A stretch of DNA of 64,000 nucleotides from Hyalella azteca. Lineage: Eukaryota; Arthropoda; Malacostraca; Amphipoda; Hyalellidae. The translations under genes were made by a program, and so were the position numbers. Of the stretch, positions 13,330 through 62,100 are shown piece after piece. The stretch lies in the NCBI RefSeq assembly GCF_000764305.2, contig NW_025939609.1:62001-126000 (forward strand), read 5' to 3'. How positions within the stretch are numbered: the stretch's first letter is position 1; every line of letters begins with the position of its first letter. The notes below the pieces were generated by a model that searched no databases, was not told the origin of the DNA, and saw only the letters and a list, made by a program, of their open reading frames with translations.

Positions 13330-13471
13330 CTTGTTTCTGCGCGTGAATGGAGCATGAGGAATAATGACGACTTCTTTCAGCCACTGCCTTCCTTTCCCTC
13401 CAGCCTGCCTCCACAAACTCCAAGCCGAGGCTCCAACGTCTCCAACGCCCCAGTCTTCCACCAGCTCCACA
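13330..13471 (-). CDS. Exon: MAM4, LW...W strand
   Basis: Acceptor CCTAAAAAG (poor tract), donor AACAAG|GTAGGA; phase 2 in, 0 out. It encodes VELVEDWGVGDVGASAWSLW then RQAGGKGRQWLKEVVIIPH, a good match to the MAM segment LW...G..G..W....V.I. The weak acceptor is accepted because the phase from 13,710-13,872 and the domain continuity both require it. Confidence 0.8.
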
Positions 13472-19370: not shown

Positions 19371-19568
19371 CAGCACAGAAGGCCTCGTCTTCGCCGGCAG
19401 CGCAGTCGGCGACGCCGTTACAGAGCAGCGGCCGCGCAAGACACGCCCCCGCCACGGCCGCCTCAGGGCAGATGTCGGCGCTGCACCGCACGTCAGAGCG
19501 GCACAAGAAACCGTTGTCCGGACACTCGTACGCTGCGTTCTTCTTGCGGATTTTGGCCGATAACTCTG
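19371..19568 (-). CDS. Exon: LDLa3 (long variant)
   Basis: Acceptor TTTTTGTAG, donor GCTG|GTCAGA; phase 1 in and out. After AELSAKIRKKNAAYE it encodes CPDNGFLCRSDVRCSADICP, EAAVAGACLARPLLC and NGVADCAAGEDEAFC. The domain has the DC..GEDE..C ending and extra residues with two extra cysteines in the middle. It joins 24,912-25,106 in phase, but not the exon at 23,581, which sits between them on the map. Confidence 0.87.
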
Positions 19569-19713
19569 CTACAAAAATACAAATTCTTTTGATTTAACCC
19601 TCAACCGCCTGACATGAGTAACCGGAGCGCAGAACTTGGCCGATAAATACGCTACAAAAATAAACAATTGTTTTGATTTAACCCTCTACCACCTGCCATG
19701 AGTAACCGGAGCA
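19553..19713. repeat. 86-bp tandem duplication of the LDLa3 exon edge plus MITE end
   Basis: Units start at 19,553 and 19,639. Each contains GGCCGATAA (exon), the acceptor GCTACAAAAAT, a T-rich tract, TTAACCCTC and the first 30 bp of the piggyBac-like MITE. The duplication therefore happened after the MITE inserted. Confidence 0.8.
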
Positions 19714-21833: not shown

Positions 21834-21980
21834 NCACATGTTCACCATAACGCATCACATGTTCACCATAACACATCACATGTTCACCATAACGTGCCAC
21901 ATGTTCACCATAACGCATCACATGTTCACCATAACACATCACATGTTCACCATAACACATCACATGTTCACCATACCGAA
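21834..21980. repeat. 21-bp minisatellite, ~7 copies, with an ambiguous base
   Basis: Unit CACATGTTCACCATAACGCA+T. Base 21,834 is N. One further unit lies left of the hAT end at 21,389-21,406. 21,985-23,430 is unique intron-like sequence with no gene I can support. Confidence 0.88.
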
Positions 21981-23429: not shown

Positions 23430-23570
23430 TCCACTGACTGGGAATGTTCAGCTCACCACTGACTGGGAATGACACCTGCACTCCTGCCACGCACACCTGC
23501 ACTCCTGCCACGCACCTGCACTCCTGCCACGCACCTGCACTCCTGCCACGCACCTGCATGCGTGTGCGTG
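23430..23570. repeat. Two minisatellites abutting: CACTGACTGGGAATG type and CACCTGCACTCCTGCCACG type
   Basis: 23,430-23,475 repeats the unit found at 24,803-24,915. From about 23,476 it changes abruptly to CACCTGCACTCCTGCCACGC units identical to those left of the N gap (30,698-30,811). Each of the second units reads CAG|GTGCGT in gene sense, resembling the donor of the adjacent exon. Confidence 0.85.
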
Positions 23571-23580
23571 TTGCAGGCAC

Positions 23581-23678
23581 CTGCACGCACTCTGTCAGCC
23601 AGGAGGAGCCCTTGCTCCTGCACTGCTGCCACAGCACCTGCAGCGCCTCCTGCAGCGCTGGTCCTGAATTTCCTGTGT
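23581..23678 (-). CDS. Exon: MAM3 LW...W strand, misplaced in this assembly
   Basis: Acceptor GTGCTGGTGCAG, donor GTGCAG|GTGCCT; phase 1 in, 0 out. It encodes DTGNSGPALQEALQVLWQQC then RSKGSSWLTECVQ. This is the MAM segment LW....G..W....V, equivalent to the exons at 13,330-13,471 (MAM4) and 3,773-3,897 (MAM5). MAM3 lacks exactly this segment. Its phases fit between 32,674-32,765 (leaves phase 1) and 29,911-29,995 (enters phase 0). They break the phase-1 chain of its map neighbours 24,912 and 19,568, which join perfectly without it. Confidence 0.82.
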
Positions 23679-24659
23679 CTGCACCAGCACAAAATTGCCA
23701 CAATTTTTTATAATTAATTTCAAGAATGAAATCAAGCAAATTAATTTGTCATTAAATTCTGGCCGCACGAGCAGAAAATGGGACAATTTTTTCAATTCAT
23801 TTCATTAATGAAATCAAGATAATTTATTTTTCTTAAAACCCCTGGCCAATCTGCTTTAATAAAAATGAATTACAATGAATCAGACCCATGATCGGCTCGT
23901 TTGAATGTCTTCATATAATTTTATAACAAGTTGCATGTTTTTCAAGTTGCATGTTTTTCAAGTTTTATGTTTGCAAGTTTGTTCAGCGCACATATACGCA
24001 CATATGCAGCTTATCCTGCAGAGAAATACAATAATTTGTTAAATTTGTAGCATATTTCAATTAGGAAAAAGTTTAAATAATATCTTTGATAATTAAAGTT
24101 ATTATATAGGCAAAAATTCCTATTAACTATTCAAATCTGCAAAATTGCAGAGTTTATTTATTTTGACAACAGGGTTTTCAGCATAAAAATTATACCGTTT
24201 TTGCTCTGGTTTCTATTTACTTGCATAGCCCATTTACATGCATAGCCTATTTACATGCATAGCCTATTTACATGCATGCATAGTCAAGCGTACAACGTAC
24301 ATCATGCATTGCTTCACATACAACGTACATCGTGCATAGCTCTATGTCATGTATGTGTGAGAATCTTAAATTAAACATAGTAAATGGATTTATTTGCATA
24401 GATCTAAATCGTTTACACGAGAAATTCCTTCAACAATTTATTTCCAATTAATTTCGTCATTTTATTTTCATTGTTAACCCATGTTAACAGTCCAATTAAT
24501 GCCAGATTAAATGATGGAACATGAAGCAAAATTTTAATGGTTGCTGAACTAAAAATTTATATTTATTTCACTGCAAAAAATTACAAATTTCATAAAAATC
24601 CTGCAAAAACCCAAATGAAATGGCGTGGGACTCTTGTTTGTACAGGGCGAGGGGAGAAG

Positions 24660-24772
24660 CCAATAACCGCGAGCCTTTCTGATGGTGGAGAGTGAGGGGA
24701 GACGGGGCTGTGTAGTGAGGGGAGACAGTGCTGTGTAGTGAGGGGAGACAGGGCTGTGTAGTGAGGGGAGAC
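24660..24772. repeat. GTGAGGGGAGAC...GCTGTGTAGT minisatellite
   Basis: Unit of ~23 bp, a near match to the array at 30,998-31,170 on the right of the N gap. It ends in adaptor sequence. Confidence 0.85.
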
Positions 24773-24802
24773 TATACACATCTAGATGTGTATAAGAGAC
24801 AG
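24773..24802. other. Nextera (Tn5 mosaic-end) junction adaptor left in the assembly
   Basis: TATACACATCT is followed by the complete 19-bp AGATGTGTATAAGAGACAG. This is the synthetic mosaic end in the inverted configuration made by mate-pair circularisation; the first 8 bases are missing. It is an artefact, not genomic sequence. Confidence 0.95.
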
Positions 24803-24911
24803 GCTCACCACTGACTGGAAATCACCACTGACTGGGAATGTACCACTGACTGGAAATGTTCAGCTCACCACTGACTGGGAATGTACCACTGACTGGAAAT
24901 GTTCAGCTCAC
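24803..24911. repeat. Exon-edge array (donor side) of LDLa2
   Basis: Repeats of CAGTGGTGAGCTGAACATTT and CCAGTCAGTGGTACATTCCC in gene sense. Each full unit contains the sequence CAGTG|GTGAGCTGAACATT that forms the real donor at 24,912. Further units lie at 23,430-23,475. Confidence 0.82.
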
Positions 24912-25106
24912 CACTGAGGCCACAGTGCATCTCATCGCTGGCGTCAGGACAGTCGGACATTCCGTCGCAGATCCATTCTTCCAGCAGCGGCCAGCCGTCC
25001 ATACACGACAGTTCGATGGACGGCAGATCATCGGTGGCCGCCTCTGCGTCGTCCACCTCCGCTGTGGACGCTAACGCCACCGATAAAATGTCCGAAACAG
25101 ACGACA
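24912..25106 (-). CDS. Exon: LDLa2 (lacks Cys1 and Cys3)
   Basis: Acceptor CTCCTATTAG, donor CAGTG|GTGAGC; phase 1 in and out. A 31-residue acidic lead (VSSVSDILSVALASTAEVDD) precedes SIELSCMDGWPLLEEWICDG and MSDCPDASDEMHC. The CDG..DC.D.SDE..C core is intact. The first and third cysteines, which normally bond to each other, are absent. It joins 19,568 in phase. Confidence 0.87.
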
Positions 25107-25651: not shown

Positions 25652-25750
25652 CGCAGTTTTGTTCGTCTTCGCCGCCCTTGCAGTCGTCGTAGGAGTCACA
25701 CCGCCAGTCCTCAGATATCATCGTCCCGTCCGCGCACCTGAACTGCCCGC
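25652..25750 (-). CDS. Exon: LDLa1 (lacks Cys1 and Cys3)
   Basis: Acceptor CATGCATCAG, donor TGCG|GTGATT; phase 1 in and out. It encodes GGQFRCADGTMISEDWRCDS then YDDCKGGEDEQNC. The ending DC.GGEDE..C is a good LDLa match. The pair of cysteines expected before F-x-C and after the first turn is missing, as in LDLa2 and LDLa4. Its acceptor edge is copied twice more upstream. Confidence 0.87.
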
Positions 25751-26160
25751 CTGATGCATGCAACAAATTATGTGCATTTCGAGGGAGGACTCAGCAAAAT
25801 ATATATCAATAAACAAATATAAAAAAGATGATATATCATATAAACAAAATAAGGGATAAATTGGGAATACAGTTAATAATACTGCCCGCCTGATTCATGT
25901 AAGAAATAATGTGCAATTCGAGGGAGGACTCAGCTAAATATATATCAGCAAACAAATATAAAAAAAGATGATATATCATATTAAGAAAATAAGGGATAAA
26001 TTGGGAATACAGTTAATAATACTGCCCTCCTGATTCATGTAAGAAATTATGTGCAATTTAAGGACCCGGCAAAATATATATCAGCTAACAATTATAAAAA
26101 TGTTGAAACATCATATTAACAAATTTAGGGATAATTAAGAATACAGTTTTTGCTGAATTT
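25741..26160. repeat. Exon-edge array (acceptor side) of LDLa1, ~140-bp unit, 3 copies
   Basis: CTGCCCGCCTGATGCATG at the true exon edge recurs as CTGCCCGCCTGATTCATG near 25,882 and CTGCCCTCCTGATTCATG near 26,023. Each is followed by the same intron segment (GTGCAATTCGAGGGAGGACT, ATATATCATAT). The splice acceptor is therefore present in three copies. 26,160-26,625 holds only AT-rich intron. Confidence 0.87.
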
Positions 26161-27899: not shown

Positions 27900-28385
27900 T
27901 TATTAACAACCACCCAATTCACCACTCACCCTTGTTATTAACGACCACCCAATTCACCACTCAACCACCCAATTCACCACTCAACCACCCAATTCACCAC
28001 TCACCCTTGTTATTAACGACCACCCAATTCATGCCACCCATGGGAGGCTGTGTCATGCCACAGAAGGTGTCATGTGCATCACACCACCACTGTGGTGCAC
28101 CAGCACCATACCGCAGTACCTCCAGCGCACCGAAGTGATGAGACTCCAAGTGACTGGAGTACCTGGAGAGATGGGTAATGTGGTGTACATGGGGAGATGG
28201 GTAATGTGGTGCACATGGGGAGATGGGTAATGTGGTGTACATGGGGAGATGGGTAATGTGGTGTACATGGGGAGATAGGTAATGTGGTGCACATGGGGAG
28301 ATGGGGAGATGGGTAATGTGGTGTACATGGGGAGATTGGTAATGTGGTGTACATGGGGAGATGGGTAATGTAGTGTACATGGGGA
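27900..28385. repeat. Simple tandem repeats (CACCCAATTCACCACT; 26-bp GGGGAGATGGGTAATG unit)
   Basis: 27,900-28,030 repeats ACCACCCAATTCACCACTCA. 28,165-28,385 repeats ATGGGGAGATGGGTAATGTG+GTGTAC about nine times. ORFs reading HHITHLP are artefacts. Confidence 0.9.
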
Positions 28386-29910: not shown

Positions 29911-29995
29911 GACAAGGTCCTGGTGACGCCCTGAGAGCGATGTCGTCGAGATATATCCTGGACTCTGTGCCTGCTGAACCTGATCTCAGGATGAT
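29911..29995 (-). CDS. Exon: end of MAM3
   Basis: Acceptor ACCCCTCCCCTAG, donor TGTC|GTACAT; phase 0 in, 1 out. It encodes IILRSGSAGTESRIYLDDIA then LRASPGPC, a clear MAM terminus (DDIAL....GPC). A later donor at 29,880 (TCTGA|GTAACT) would extend it by ten residues but breaks the phase with the 26,740 exon. In phase it must be preceded by the exon now at 23,581, not directly by 32,674. Three ~100-bp degenerate repeats occupy 30,015-30,250. Confidence 0.85.
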
Positions 29996-30697: not shown

Positions 30698-30811
30698 ATT
30701 CCTGCACCTGCACTCCTGCCACGCACACCTGCACTCCTGCCACGCACCTGCACTCCTGCCACGCACCTGCACTCCTGCCACGCACACCTGCACTCCTGCC
30801 ACGCACCTGCA
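30698..30811. repeat. CACCTGCACTCCTGCCACGC minisatellite, left of gap
   Basis: Same units as 23,476-23,570. In gene sense each reads TGCAG|GTGCGTGGCAGGAG. Runs into the N gap. Confidence 0.9.
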
Positions 30812-30997
30812 NNNNNNNNNNNNNNNNNNNNNNNNNNNNNNNNNNNNNNNNNNNNNNNNNNNNNNNNNNNNNNNNNNNNNNNNNNNNNNNNNNNNNNNNN
30901 NNNNNNNNNNNNNNNNNNNNNNNNNNNNNNNNNNNNNNNNNNNNNNNNNNNNNNNNNNNNNNNNNNNNNNNNNNNNNNNNNNNNNNNNNNNNNNNNN
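30812..30997. other. Assembly gap, 186 N
   Basis: Run of N between two different minisatellites. MAM3 lacks one exon precisely across this interval. The exon and both flanking arrays are found together at 23,476-24,772. Confidence 0.98.
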
Positions 30998-31170
30998 GAG
31001 GGGAGCTGGTGCTGTGTAGTGAGGGGAGCTGGTGCTGTGTAGTGAGGGGAGCTGGTGCTGTGTAGTGAGGGGAGCTGGTGCTGTGTAGTGAGGGGAGCTG
31101 GTGCTGTGTAGTGAGGGGAGCTGGTGCTGTGTAGTGAGGGGAGCTGGTGCTGTGTAGTGAGGGGAGTCGT
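30998..31170. repeat. GTGAGGGGAGCTGGTGCTGTGTA minisatellite, right of gap
   Basis: 23-bp unit, about eight near-identical copies; related to 24,660-24,772. 31,175-31,585 is unique intron. Confidence 0.92.
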
Positions 31171-32673: not shown

Positions 32674-32765
32674 CTTGTTTTGGCTGGGACTCTGCGCTGA
32701 CGTTCCCTCCGATGTCAGCAACTACGGCGACCTCGAGGCACTGGTCGGTGTCAGCCAGCAGGTAC
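32674..32765 (-). CDS. Exon: MAM3 C-L-x-V strand
   Basis: Acceptor CCTTCACAG, donor CAAG|GTGAAC; phase 2 in, 1 out. It encodes YLLADTDQCLEVAVVADIGG then NVSAESQPKQ, continuing LSFR of the previous exon; the MAM pattern is L.F.Y...D...L.V. An alternative internal donor (AAC|GTCAGC) exists. The phase matches the misplaced exon 23,581-23,678. Confidence 0.8.
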
Positions 32766-33908: not shown

Positions 33909-34023
33909 CTGAAACTCAGTACCCTGGCTGGTCCAGGGGGCAGTACGGCGCTTACAAGGTCCGCGGCACCAGCGATACCAGGCAGGGTTACCACACCAGC
34001 ATGGTACTTCTGAGACCCATCAC
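33909..34023 (-). CDS. Exon: MAM3 second strand
   Basis: Acceptor TTCCACCTTCAG, donor TTTCAG|GTACCG; phase 1 in, 2 out. It encodes GDGSQKYHAGVVTLPGIAGA then ADLVSAVLPPGPARVLSFR, matching MAM G........G..A.L.S..L.P.....L.F.Y. The expected Cys before L.F is absent, as in MAM4. A ~50-bp duplication with ATACGTACTACGAAG lies upstream (34,050-34,230). Confidence 0.83.
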
Positions 34024-36380: not shown

Positions 36381-36909
36381 CTCGACCAAGTATAGCCCAT
36401 ACAACATTGCCGGAGTGATGCAACCTCCAATTGCAGAATCCATCATCGAAATTGCAATCCACCACACTTCCATTTGGATCTTCTTCAAAAAATCTGTCGG
36501 TACCCAAGCTCGGAGTTGCGCGAGGGTTGTCTTCTTTCAACGCGCTTCCAAACGATAAATCCTGGATGCCACTTAATTCTCTTGCCGACCCATACATTTC
36601 ACGTGATAAACTCGGGTATTTTCCATCTTCTTCTGTTCCAAATAAGTGGTTCCTCAGTGAATGATCTTGGTCTTCTTCATGCATATTTATTCTTAAGCTT
36701 TTTGCTGCGTCATCATTTGTACTGACATGGGGTACTTGAGCCACACACTGCGTGCGTACGGCGAGTCGGACATTCTTAACGATAATTCCTTCATTACTCT
36801 GAATGCGAGTGAACAATGTTTCTCCGCCATCATTTGAAGGCGAATGTTGACGAGAGTTCGAGTTCGGTGTCGAGTGCTCCCCAGTGAAATCACGGGCGCG
36901 GAAAATTAT
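36381..36909 (-). CDS. Exon: end of MAM2, long linker, start of MAM3
   Basis: Acceptor CTGCACAG, donor CGAG|GTGAGA; phase 0 in, 1 out. It opens IIFRARDFTGEHS and runs through GIIVKNVRLAVRTQC, the MAM2 end, with a Ser/Asn insert between. A ~90-residue acidic linker follows (STNDDAAKSLRINMHEEDQD ...). It ends VVDCNFDDGFCNWRLHHSGN and VVWAILGR, an unambiguous MAM start. Ending one MAM and starting the next in a single exon repeats the layout of 38,751-39,177. Confidence 0.88.
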
Positions 36910-55479: not shown

Positions 55480-56165
55480 ACCACTACTACCATCACCATC
55501 ACCACTCTTGAACATCACCACCATCATCACCACTCTTAAACATCACCACCACCATCACCACTCTTAAACATCACCACCACCACTCTTAAACATCACCACC
55601 ATCATCACCACTCTTGAACATCACCACCATCATCACCACTCTTGAACATCACCACCATCATCACCACTCTTGAACATCACCACCACCATCACCCTGTCTC
55701 TTATACACATCTAGATGTGTATAAGAGAACATCACCACCATCATCACCACTCTTGAACATCACCACTCTTAAACACCACCACCACCATCACCACTCTTGA
55801 ACATCACCACCATCATCACAACTCTTAAACATCACCACCATCATCACCACCCTTGAACATCACCACCACCATCACCACTCTTAAACATCACCACTTCTAA
55901 CCACTAGCACTGCTACCCCTCACCACCACTGCTACGCTCAACACCACCACCACCCTTCACCACCACCACCACCCTTCAACACCTCTGCTGCCCTCACCAC
56001 CACTGCTACCCCTCACCACCACCCCTCACCACCACCCTCACCACCCACCAGCAGGCACGTAGTGGTGAGCCAGCAGGAAGCCATGGTAGGCTGTGTGTTC
56101 ATCACTCGTGAACACCACCCCTCACCACCACCACCCCTCACCACCCACCACCACCACCCTCACCA
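55480..56165. repeat. CAC/CAT-rich repeat tract and duplicated exon piece
   Basis: 55,480-55,910 repeats CATCACCACCATCATCACCA then CTCTTGAA. 55,910-56,050 is degenerate CACCACC. At 56,045-56,118 a ~74-bp piece of the adjoining CUB1 exon (AGCAGGCACGTAGTGGTGAG ... TCATCACTCGTGAACACCAC) is repeated nearly exactly. Confidence 0.88.
55694..55728. other. Nextera junction adaptor left in the assembly
   Basis: Complete CTGTCTCTTATACACATCT followed by AGATGTGTATAAGAGA, 35 of the 38 bases of a mate-pair junction, inside the CAC/CAT repeat. The repeat length here is therefore unreliable. Confidence 0.96.
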
Positions 56166-59569: not shown

Positions 59570-62100
59570 AATGCTGGAGCTCTATATTTTTGTGTAACCC
59601 CTCAGTTTTGTAAGACGAACGCTTGATCTCTGTGCTCTGATATAAGCACTTGGTTTCGAATGACGTGATTCGTAAATGATCCATCGAATGACCGTAAATT
59701 ATTTTTAAGTCATTGCTTGTACATTTTTACATAGAACTCGGCATATTTTTTTACCATTTTCATTTTAAATGGTCTCTCTAAGCTGTTCTTTTTATTTAAA
59801 TTCTATTTTTTCGTGGAATTCATTTTTTAGAACATCCATACGCATTCTTAAATTCGAGGTGGCTTTTATGGGGCATTCTCGTATTTATGACCCTCTTTGA
59901 AACTTGGACTATTTGCGGAGAAAAGGTTGTATTTTTTTGGCTATACAAGCACTTTTGATGTATTTTTCAACCATAGCTATGAGACAATCATGTTTATCTA
60001 TGACCGGATTTCGTTGCGTATTTTCATCCATAAAATGCAGGTATGAATTTCAATGCATAAATAAAATAAAGTCAATAATAATACACAATACACTATACAC
60101 TAAAGTCACTAATACTGTCAATACAACACCAATTTAATATAGGATTGAAGAGGGGAAACTCTAGCCCTGCACCAGGGGTCACTTAGCAGCTGAGATATGG
60201 CCTAAGTTTTGGCTCTAACCATCGGGTAATTGGCGCCCAAACTGCTGTCGCGACAGCGGGTGTCGTGGCTGAAGAATTATGGCCGCTACTTACCTAATAA
60301 ATATGATCGGCAAATAAGGGCGGGTCATTTATAGGTTAACCTGAAATTAGGTACATTTATTGTAGGGTAATTACACGTCGATTGAATTTACGCTTCTTGG
60401 TCGGGGGTTCGATAAATGTGTAAGATACTGAACCTGTACTTTTGTTTTTTAATAGCAAAGAGAAAATTCTGGAAAATTTTTAAATGAATAAATTGAGGTC
60501 TAGCAATTTATAAATATAATGCAATTAAGAAGTAAACTGAAACACATGTATTAGTTCAAGTGAATTTAGTTTACATGGCTGGTGACCGTGAGACGAGTGC
60601 GGGATGCGCGTATTTGACACCTAACAGCTTCGGGACGGGCAACGGCCGAATCTGAGAAGAGGCATCTGATGGGTGGGGGCATGCAAATCTATGTACATAA
60701 TATACCCCCAGTCTAGACGAAAAACATAAAAACTAATTTATCACCGCCGCACCATGATACAAATGGCAAAGAAACCCGACGTTGAGCTGGAAATAATAGC
60801 ACTTATTAACTTATTACAATTATCAACCCCAACTTCCCACATAACCCACAAGTCACAACCAAACATTCTCTAACACTAATCTTAATGTACTTGACATTTT
60901 CACGCAATAATCAGTCCTCAAAGTTCTTCCACAACATTAACAAACAACAGTCTAGTGTCTCTACAAGGCTCAATTTTAATGCATGGACTTTGAGAACAGA
61001 ATCCATTTCACATGGCGTAATTTAAATGTGGTAGCTAATTCCTCTATTTCTAAGGATGGAATAGTAGGGATGAAATAGTAATATTCTTTACTAAAACATG
61101 ATTAACTAATCGCGGTAATTCAATCAAAGGCGAAACCTTCATGCATTCTTATTTCCCATTGCATGCAAATTATCCAGAATGATTTTTTGCTATTAACTGC
61201 CATTTCACGATACGTCACCGGAAAGTTCCGATTCAGTACACGTTTTACAAGGGTCAATAAAATTCTATCAATACAGTGGCTGTGAACATTTCTACGGCCG
61301 AATTGAATATAAACATTCCTACCGCCGAAATTACGTTTGGAATTTGTGACCATTCGAACATTACTATGCTCCATTACAACTTTAGAAATCTCTCCTCTTA
61401 TAAGTTGTTGTTCAACTAAAATAACCCAATACTTCGATTTTCCTCCGGTAATAAACCTGATGATACAATGGAATAAAGCACATAAAAACGGATAACGACC
61501 AACGCAATTACTTACGATTAGGCTAGGCATCTACAATGTACGTTCAATCCTGTATTGCTTGCAAGCGGCCCGGCGCCGGGGTATGAAGACTACCTCGTAT
61601 CGATTCAAAACGTAATCATGCACGCAATTGACTGTGGACAATAATTATTCTAGACTTACGGTTTCACAAATCGATCCAACTATCTTGTCTAATTAGAAAT
61701 AAAACCTATAGTATATGAACACGAGCGAGCTGAAATAAGATGCTTGTGCCAACATATACCCCGAGTTAAAAATTTATTTTACAGCGAAAATTTCGAAGCT
61801 CAACTGTGTGTTTTTGCATGTCGCCATGCCGTGTATTCCAACCGTCAAAGAATTTCACTTTAGGAGACACTGGACATTAAAAACTTGGGAAGTTGCGTTT
61901 CGACAATTTACGAAATTAACATGTTCATCCTTTAAAACAGAATTATTTCCAATTCACCGCTCCACTAGTCATACTAAGATTGAACGATTGTAATGAGAAA
62001 AATATCTCAACCGTAAGTCGAACGCGTCGAAATGCACCAAACTACTGACGCCACATCGTCTACGTCTCCACTCTCCGGCTCTCCGCTGTTGCATTGCCAT
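59570..62100. other. Unique sequence without a supported gene
   Basis: Mixed AT-rich DNA. The minus ORF 61,120-61,530 (136 codons, ...VKRVLNRNFPVTYREMAVNS...) has no domain I recognise and a GTAAGT a few codons in; it may be chance. No splice-linked exon of the large gene was found here. Confidence 0.5.

Follow-up and report, generated by a model that had tools for sequence, protein, structure and literature searches.

A misplaced 1.3-kb block with a MAM exon in Hyalella azteca, most likely the filling of an N gap at 30.8 kb

Why does a single exon of a MAM domain lie between two LDLa exons, in a block of sequence that ends in a synthetic adaptor? The question is raised by contig NW_025939609.1 of the amphipod Hyalella azteca (RefSeq assembly GCF_000764305.2), of which positions 62,001 to 126,000 of the forward strand were analyzed. 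This stretch of 64,000 nucleotides is referred to as the window, and coordinates are counted from its first letter. Its minus strand contains a gene that reads as an animal-type gene with CUB, MAM, and LDLa exons. The block (positions 23,472 to 24,772) comprises 1,301 bp with a G+C content of 38.5% and includes one MAM exon and two minisatellite ends. With a probability of about 90%, it represents a local misassembly and most likely fills the N gap at 30.8 kb, within the set of exons designated MAM3. This placement is based on the adaptor at the border of the block, the restriction of its similarity in the window to the flanks of that gap, the completion of MAM3, and the splice phases. The initial annotation of this DNA had proposed the same displacement and the same gap, and the adaptor, the arrays, the MAM3 domain, and the phases all support it. 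The coordinates of the features are collected in Table 1.

Borders of the block and flanks of the gap

The block interrupts a minisatellite. The CACTGACTGGGAATG array halts at 23,471 and starts again at 24,803, and the sequence between these positions consists of the block and an adaptor remnant. The remnant (24,773 to 24,802) exactly matches the final 30 bases of the 38-base Nextera mate-pair junction adaptor, a palindrome with a double mosaic end; the first 8 adaptor bases, those on the left side, are absent. As the adaptor is synthetic, the right-hand join as it stands in the assembly cannot represent genomic sequence.

The window contains two runs of N, and the only one longer than a single base is the gap at 30,812 to 30,997 (186 N). 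In a blastn comparison of the block with the rest of the window (E < 0.01), the sole matches are the two flanks of this gap, with best E values of 3.5e-38 (left) and 1.3e-22 (right); the two matches are on the plus strand and in the same order. On the left, the 19/21-bp CACCTGCACTCCTGCCACG units of the block and of the gap flank are 100% identical, and the final 48 bp ahead of the gap (30,764 to 30,811) coincide exactly with positions 23,473 to 23,520 of the block, in a register that keeps to the 19/21-bp pattern of the units. Two alternative registers give runs of 27 bp. On the right, the consensus units of block and gap are 87% identical (edit distance of 3 in 23), a value that was reached by 0 of 1,000 shuffles of the right unit. 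The ends of the block therefore continue both flanks of the gap in order and in orientation, exactly over 48 bp on the left and with 87% identity on the right.

These two pairings, block left with gap left and block right with gap right, rank first and second among the 417 unit pairs, with 70% identity for the next pair. The 417 length-compatible pairs were formed by 41 units hand-picked from 141 overlapping rows, an array comparison that omitted some short, low-scoring, or very long arrays and the pairs differing in length by more than 30%. The earlier description of this region requires two adjustments. Its block began at 23,476, whereas the interruption starts 4 bases earlier; the end at 24,772 was correct, as the adaptor follows from the next base, and so was the location of the block within another minisatellite with Nextera adaptor at its right border. 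The "same two minisatellites" that it saw around block and gap are indeed the same on the left and keep their order and orientation, but those on the right are related and not identical.

MAM3 and the block exon

The peptide of the block exon is present in the sequence, and the exon has AG and GT borders. Without it, the remaining pieces of MAM3 cannot be joined in frame; when the break is masked with X, they score 22.7 bits against the Pfam MAM profile (Pfam ID PF00629, gathering cut-off of 26.4 bits), in two pieces and below the cut-off. Inclusion of the exon in the form 23,678 to 23,581 raises the score to 28.5 bits, and inclusion of the form 23,554 to 23,678 raises it to 45.2 bits, above the cut-off and extending over profile positions 1 to 156 of 158. 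The 3' end of the exon is most likely at 23,554 (CAG/GTGCGT), 27 bp past 23,581, because the score of the shorter form barely exceeds the 27.1 bits of a control in which the longer exon peptide was reversed. The longer form is also supported by the number of residues between the tryptophan and the intron, which is 17 in MAM4 (see below), 15 in MAM3 with the 23,554 end, and 6 with the 23,581 end. When only the C-terminal part is scored (exons from 32,765 onward), there is no MAM match without the block exon, 13.7 bits with the 23,581 form, 30.4 bits with the 23,554 form, and again no MAM match with the reversed peptide. The acceptor is less certain than the 3' end: in-phase acceptors are found at 23,678, 23,672, 23,663, and 23,657, and the candidate scan described below slightly favors the shorter forms. 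As judged from these profile scores, the block exon is the predicted exon that completes MAM3.

The phases are consistent with this assignment. The block exon is entered in phase 1 and left in phase 0, which is the phase in which 29,995 is entered. At the present location of the block, joining 24,912, which leaves phase 1, directly to 19,568 gives a continuous reading of two LDLa domains with a score of 47.1 bits. When the block exon is included, the second LDLa domain is out of frame, and a single LDLa stretch of 28.5 bits is obtained. If the form with the 23,581 end is inserted, with X masking the break in the frame, the two LDLa domains are both kept (42.8 bits). The initial annotation had taken the stretch 23,581 to 23,678 for the strand that MAM3 lacks; the peptide, the AG/GT borders, and the increase from 22.7 to 45.2 bits bear this out, and only the exon end has to be moved, to 23,554. 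Its phases were confirmed by translation, as was its statement that 24,912 joins 19,568 in frame only when the block is removed. It had further presented its four signals as independent; they are not fully so, as the exon and phase arguments rest on one common exon call.

In a scan of the window, 3,005 open AG..GT candidates of 60 to 200 bp, going from phase 1 to phase 0 on either strand, were each set into MAM3 and scored by a hidden Markov model (HMM) made from four solved vertebrate MAM structures alone. This HMM (m4) was relied on for the candidate scan only. Another HMM (m), which included MAM3 itself, was discarded as circular. The best site in the window is 13,430 to 13,330 (18.1 bits), the second is the block exon ending at 23,554 (15.4 to 14.3 bits), and the third is at 3.9 kb (12.3 bits); the form ending at 23,581 is absent from the 40 rows listed.

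The best-scoring site resembles the corresponding strand of a further MAM domain, MAM4, as far as can be read from its sequence. Its end at 13,330, in phase 0, precedes VRATRGAGSEGDIAL, and the place and phase of the intron are common to MAM3 and MAM4, a feature that supports membership in the MAM family without defining it. The next exon of MAM4, at 1,840, encodes VRATRGAGSEGDIALDSLSF and is entered in phase 0; together, the two pieces (the 13.4-kb exon and the last exon) score 23.5 bits, below the 26.4-bit cut-off. MAM4 would thus have its own copy of this strand and MAM3 would lack one, as misplacement predicts. Domain fit alone does not separate MAM3 from MAM4. The block is assigned to MAM3 because of the gap, its flanking arrays, and its position, and not because of the score alone.

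Table 1. Coordinates of the block, the gap, and the exons and arrays around them
Feature	Position	Strand	Remarks
Misplaced block	23472..24772		Array interruption, adaptor match, blastn
Host array, left part, CACTGACTGGGAATG	23432..23471		Interrupted by the block
Nextera mate-pair junction adaptor remnant	24773..24802		Exact letter match, 30/38
Host array, right part, continuing the left part, CACTGACTGGGAATG	24803..24917		Extends to LDLa exon donor 24912
Block-left minisatellite CACCTGCACTCCTGCCACG, at exon donor	23473..23558		Unit identical to 30704-30811
Block-right minisatellite AGTGAGGGGAGACAGGGCTGTGT	24691..24772		Unit 87% identical to 30998-31166
Left gap flank, CACCTGCACTCCTGCCACG array	30704..30811		Last 48 bp identical to block 23473-23520
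N gap, proposed true site of the block	30812..30997		N run, 186 N
Right gap flank, GAGGGGAGCTGGTGCTGTGTAGT array	30998..31166		Array comparison
MAM3 N-terminal, part of exon (VVDCNFDDGFCNW...)	36381..36465	-	Leaves phase 1
MAM3 exon 2	33909..34023	-	Second exon, entered from phase 1; leaves phase 2
MAM3 exon 3	32674..32765	-	Enters phase 2, leaves phase 1
MAM3 exon 4 (block exon), predicted	23554..23678	-	125 bp; phase 1 in, phase 0 out; encodes (D)TGNSGPALQEALQVLWQQCRSKGSSWLTECVQVPATRTRMQ
MAM3 C-terminal coding part (IILRSGSAGTESRIYLDDIALRASPGPC)	29912..29995	-	Enters phase 0
LDLa exon upstream of the misplaced block	24912..25061	-	Leaves phase 1
Next LDLa exon	19371..19568	-	Enters phase 1; in LDLa frame only without the block exon
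Probable MAM4 counterpart of the block exon (...SLWRQAGGKGRQWLKEVVIIPHAPFTRRNK)	13330..13430	-	Leaves phase 0; 5' end tentative

Origin of the junction and competing explanations

The junction probably derives from a Nextera mate-pair library, in which the ends of a fragment of several kb are joined via the palindromic 38-base junction adaptor. We infer that it was made by a single mate-pair molecule and that the displaced sequence arrived by extension, as follows. A read crossing the junction was probably used untrimmed while a gap within the CACTGACTGG minisatellite was being closed. The right half of this read would be at 24,803, and its left half would come from the sequence missing at the N gap at approximately 30.8 to 31.0 kb. 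Extension would then have brought in some 1.3 kb of the missing sequence, including MAM3 exon 4, and the extended piece would have been joined onto the left contig at 23,471. As for the true join, we infer that the block most likely occupies the 30.8-kb gap in the actual genome and that the CACTGACTGG array would be continuous between the LDLa exon at 24,912 and that at 19,568.

In proper mate-pair fragments, the junction adaptor is located in the middle, according to a published description (PMC4074385). Reasoning from the library design, the sequence to the left of the adaptor should come from the downstream end of the fragment and that to its right from the upstream end, which would place the block on the same strand at a position downstream of 24,803. 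A block that fills the gap would imply a fragment of approximately 7,261 bp (6,009 bp to the gap plus 1,252 bp of block), shortened by 19 or 38 bp if one of the other registers applies. A length of about 7.26 kb is usual for mate-pair fragments. A paper on the Parhyale genome gives averages of 5.5, 7.3, 9.3, and 13.8 kb for its Nextera mate-pair libraries and names SSPACE for scaffolding (PMC5111886). The length calculated here would be suitable for a library of this kind, an agreement that was not used as evidence. An interpretation of the left border of the block as a second mate-pair junction was rejected by reasoning, as it would require 23.47 kb to be downstream of 30.76 kb. A second junction adaptor is present at 55,694 to 55,728 (35 of 38 bases exact), within a ACCACCATCATCACCACTCTTGAACATC minisatellite; a single array is found on both sides of it, and a displaced block is not evident there.

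Several observations weigh against the placement of the block in the 30.8-kb gap. Depending on the register, filling the gap would take 1,214 to 1,252 bp, compared to the 186 N drawn. Runs of N from scaffolding are estimates, so this mismatch weakens the gap-filling claim and does not exclude it; it is nevertheless a real discrepancy. All 7 full units on the right side of the gap are of one other type and none is of the block type, the two types being 3 edits apart in 23. At the left border (23,471/23,472), there is no adaptor and no visible microhomology, and the adaptor-free join at this point is left unexplained by the proposed route. The block exon peptide by itself has no match in Pfam, the exon alone is unlisted in a search with the four-structure HMM at E values of up to 50, and the control with the reversed peptide slightly exceeds the Pfam cut-off. 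Combined with the last exon of MAM4, the block exon scores 29.7 bits, more than MAM4's own pair, and the 13.4-kb exon outscores the block exon when placed in MAM3. The palindromic nature of the adaptor means that two unrelated adaptor-bearing reads could merge through it. At the second adaptor, the same geometry would require an array of several kb. Finally, none of three protein searches (see below) identified an ortholog that would confirm the order of the exons.

The difference between the right arrays, the gap drawn as 186 N and not about 1.25 kb, the ability of the palindrome to bridge unrelated reads, and an exon score that is not specific to MAM3 would also suit a block that is misplaced but originates elsewhere in the genome, for example, in a paralogous gene with related arrays. 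Such a block would have been joined via the adaptor, and the gap would hold some other sequence. This origin is quite improbable: the array of a paralog would be expected to differ, whereas the left array is identical and overlaps exactly over 48 bp at the end of the contig; the exon is the very one that MAM3 is missing and has the right phases; and the block has no further match within the window. An even smaller likelihood is attached to the block being genuinely at its present site, with a recent duplication or exon shuffling having copied the MAM exon and the arrays into the LDLa intron and the adaptor being incidental. The left border without adaptor would be in line with this, and so would the phase of the block exon, which is the same as that of 24,912 (phase 1), making splicing between the two possible. 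However, the adaptor is exactly at the right border, and the exon puts the following LDLa domain out of frame. Moreover, MAM3 would still need its own copy in the gap, without which it would stay strandless, in two pieces and at 22.7 bits, and a mate-pair junction would presumably not link a site to its immediate left neighbor. Contamination from another organism, which the synthetic sequence at the border might bring to mind, is barely credible. The unique part of the block has a G+C content of 31.3%, compared to 31.3 to 32.0% next to the gap and 37.5% in the sequence left of the block, both arrays are common to the block and the gap flanks, and the block exon fits MAM3. Misplacement of a block that most likely belongs in the 30.8-kb gap is the preferred reading.

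Minisatellites, gene context, and implications

Tandem arrays with a period of at least 10 make up 25% of the window, apparently a high density for a region occupied by a gene. Of the assembly defects that can be seen, namely, two adaptors and two runs of N, all four are located within 3 bp of a minisatellite; if they are independent, the chance of this is 0.26 to the fourth power, or 0.004. The single N at 21,834, right ahead of a CACATGTTCACCATAACACAT array, is probably a scaffolding join, also at a minisatellite.

Repeat units that hold a near copy of an exon end and its GT donor are found at the minus-strand donors 23,554 (block), 24,912 (LDLa), 46,114, and 49,358 (CUB). Such copies, with at most 2 mismatches in 16 and no more than 250 nt downstream, accompany 4 of 12 donors, compared to 365 of 1,998 random GT sites (18%), in a test for which the four cases had been seen beforehand, a 13th donor (CUB51) was dropped (pattern not matched), and the MAM3e donor is uncertain; the excess is suggestive and not clearly above chance. 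An upstream near copy of the acceptor is found for 2 of 8 acceptors. The arrays at 25,742 to 26,148 and 19,553 to 19,712 overlap the acceptor sides of LDLa exons (starts at 25,750 and 19,568, respectively). A near copy of acceptor 25,750, with 1 mismatch in 16, occurs no more than 250 nt upstream of it, and acceptor 19,568 has only a 3-mismatch copy. A tendency of the minisatellites in this gene to expand from splice sites is considered unlikely, and among the papers listed none dealt with minisatellites seeded by splice sites, as judged by titles and the openings of abstracts. If this were true in general, assembly breaks in this genome would preferentially hit exon borders, and the arrays would represent ladders of alternative donors.

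In the gene as a whole, three CUB pieces score 23.0, 25.9, and 34.4 bits with Pfam profiles, and the LDLa pieces score 26.0 to 47.1 bits. The MAM2 pieces and one supposed CUB piece at 56 kb have no Pfam match, and the labels MAM1, MAM2, and the 56-kb CUB are the authors' reading only. In a protein search with the MAM3 and LDLa region, the 36 matches listed all belong to the LDLa family, and none covers more than 65% of the query (7,989 candidates scored, those sharing the most words with the query). No relative was found for residues 1 to 1058 of the rough gene model at E values of up to 0.1 (7,596 candidates) or for MAM3 alone at E values of up to 10 (1,247 candidates). A phmmer comparison of partial MAM3 with solved structures returned 3 matches, the best being a fibrillin with an E value of 0.019, which was taken as a chance match. 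An open stretch on the minus strand (27,994 to 28,130, ...WWCDAHDTFCGMTQPPMGGMNWVVVNNKG), ahead of a donor-like GTGAGT and an array, is a possible exon between MAM3 and the first LDLa.

The MAM domain (PF00629) is known from receptor phosphatases kappa and mu, neuropilins, and MDGA1. MAM3 with the block exon resembles this family in its nearly full-length profile match; it is divergent, with no relative found in the searches described above, and is part of a gene with CUB, MAM, and LDLa exons. The adaptor at the right border of the block is of the kind left by untrimmed Nextera long mate-pair reads; in contrast to a short insertion, it has survived here in a scaffold and adjoins displaced sequence of 1.3 kb. 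According to the RegCloser paper (PMC10265787), false overlaps arise from chimeric reads, and gap closers often fail at tandem repeats; in one test given there, tandem repeats were involved in 75 to 100% of the gaps wrongly closed by four tools. Unlike a simple wrong closure at a tandem repeat, the present case probably involves the sequence of one gap closing another and thereby moving a coding exon.

Automated annotation of this locus is likely either to set a MAM strand between two LDLa domains, with a broken frame beyond it, or to drop the strand, leaving MAM3 truncated. In practical terms, adaptor remnants within minisatellites can flag displaced exons, and these could be detected cheaply by scanning scaffolds for the junction adaptor beside arrays that also flank N gaps. 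The displacement itself is a known sort of technical artifact; its biological interest is low, and its value is to those who annotate this gene. With the block placed at its likely site, the arrangement of the gene is biologically ordinary.
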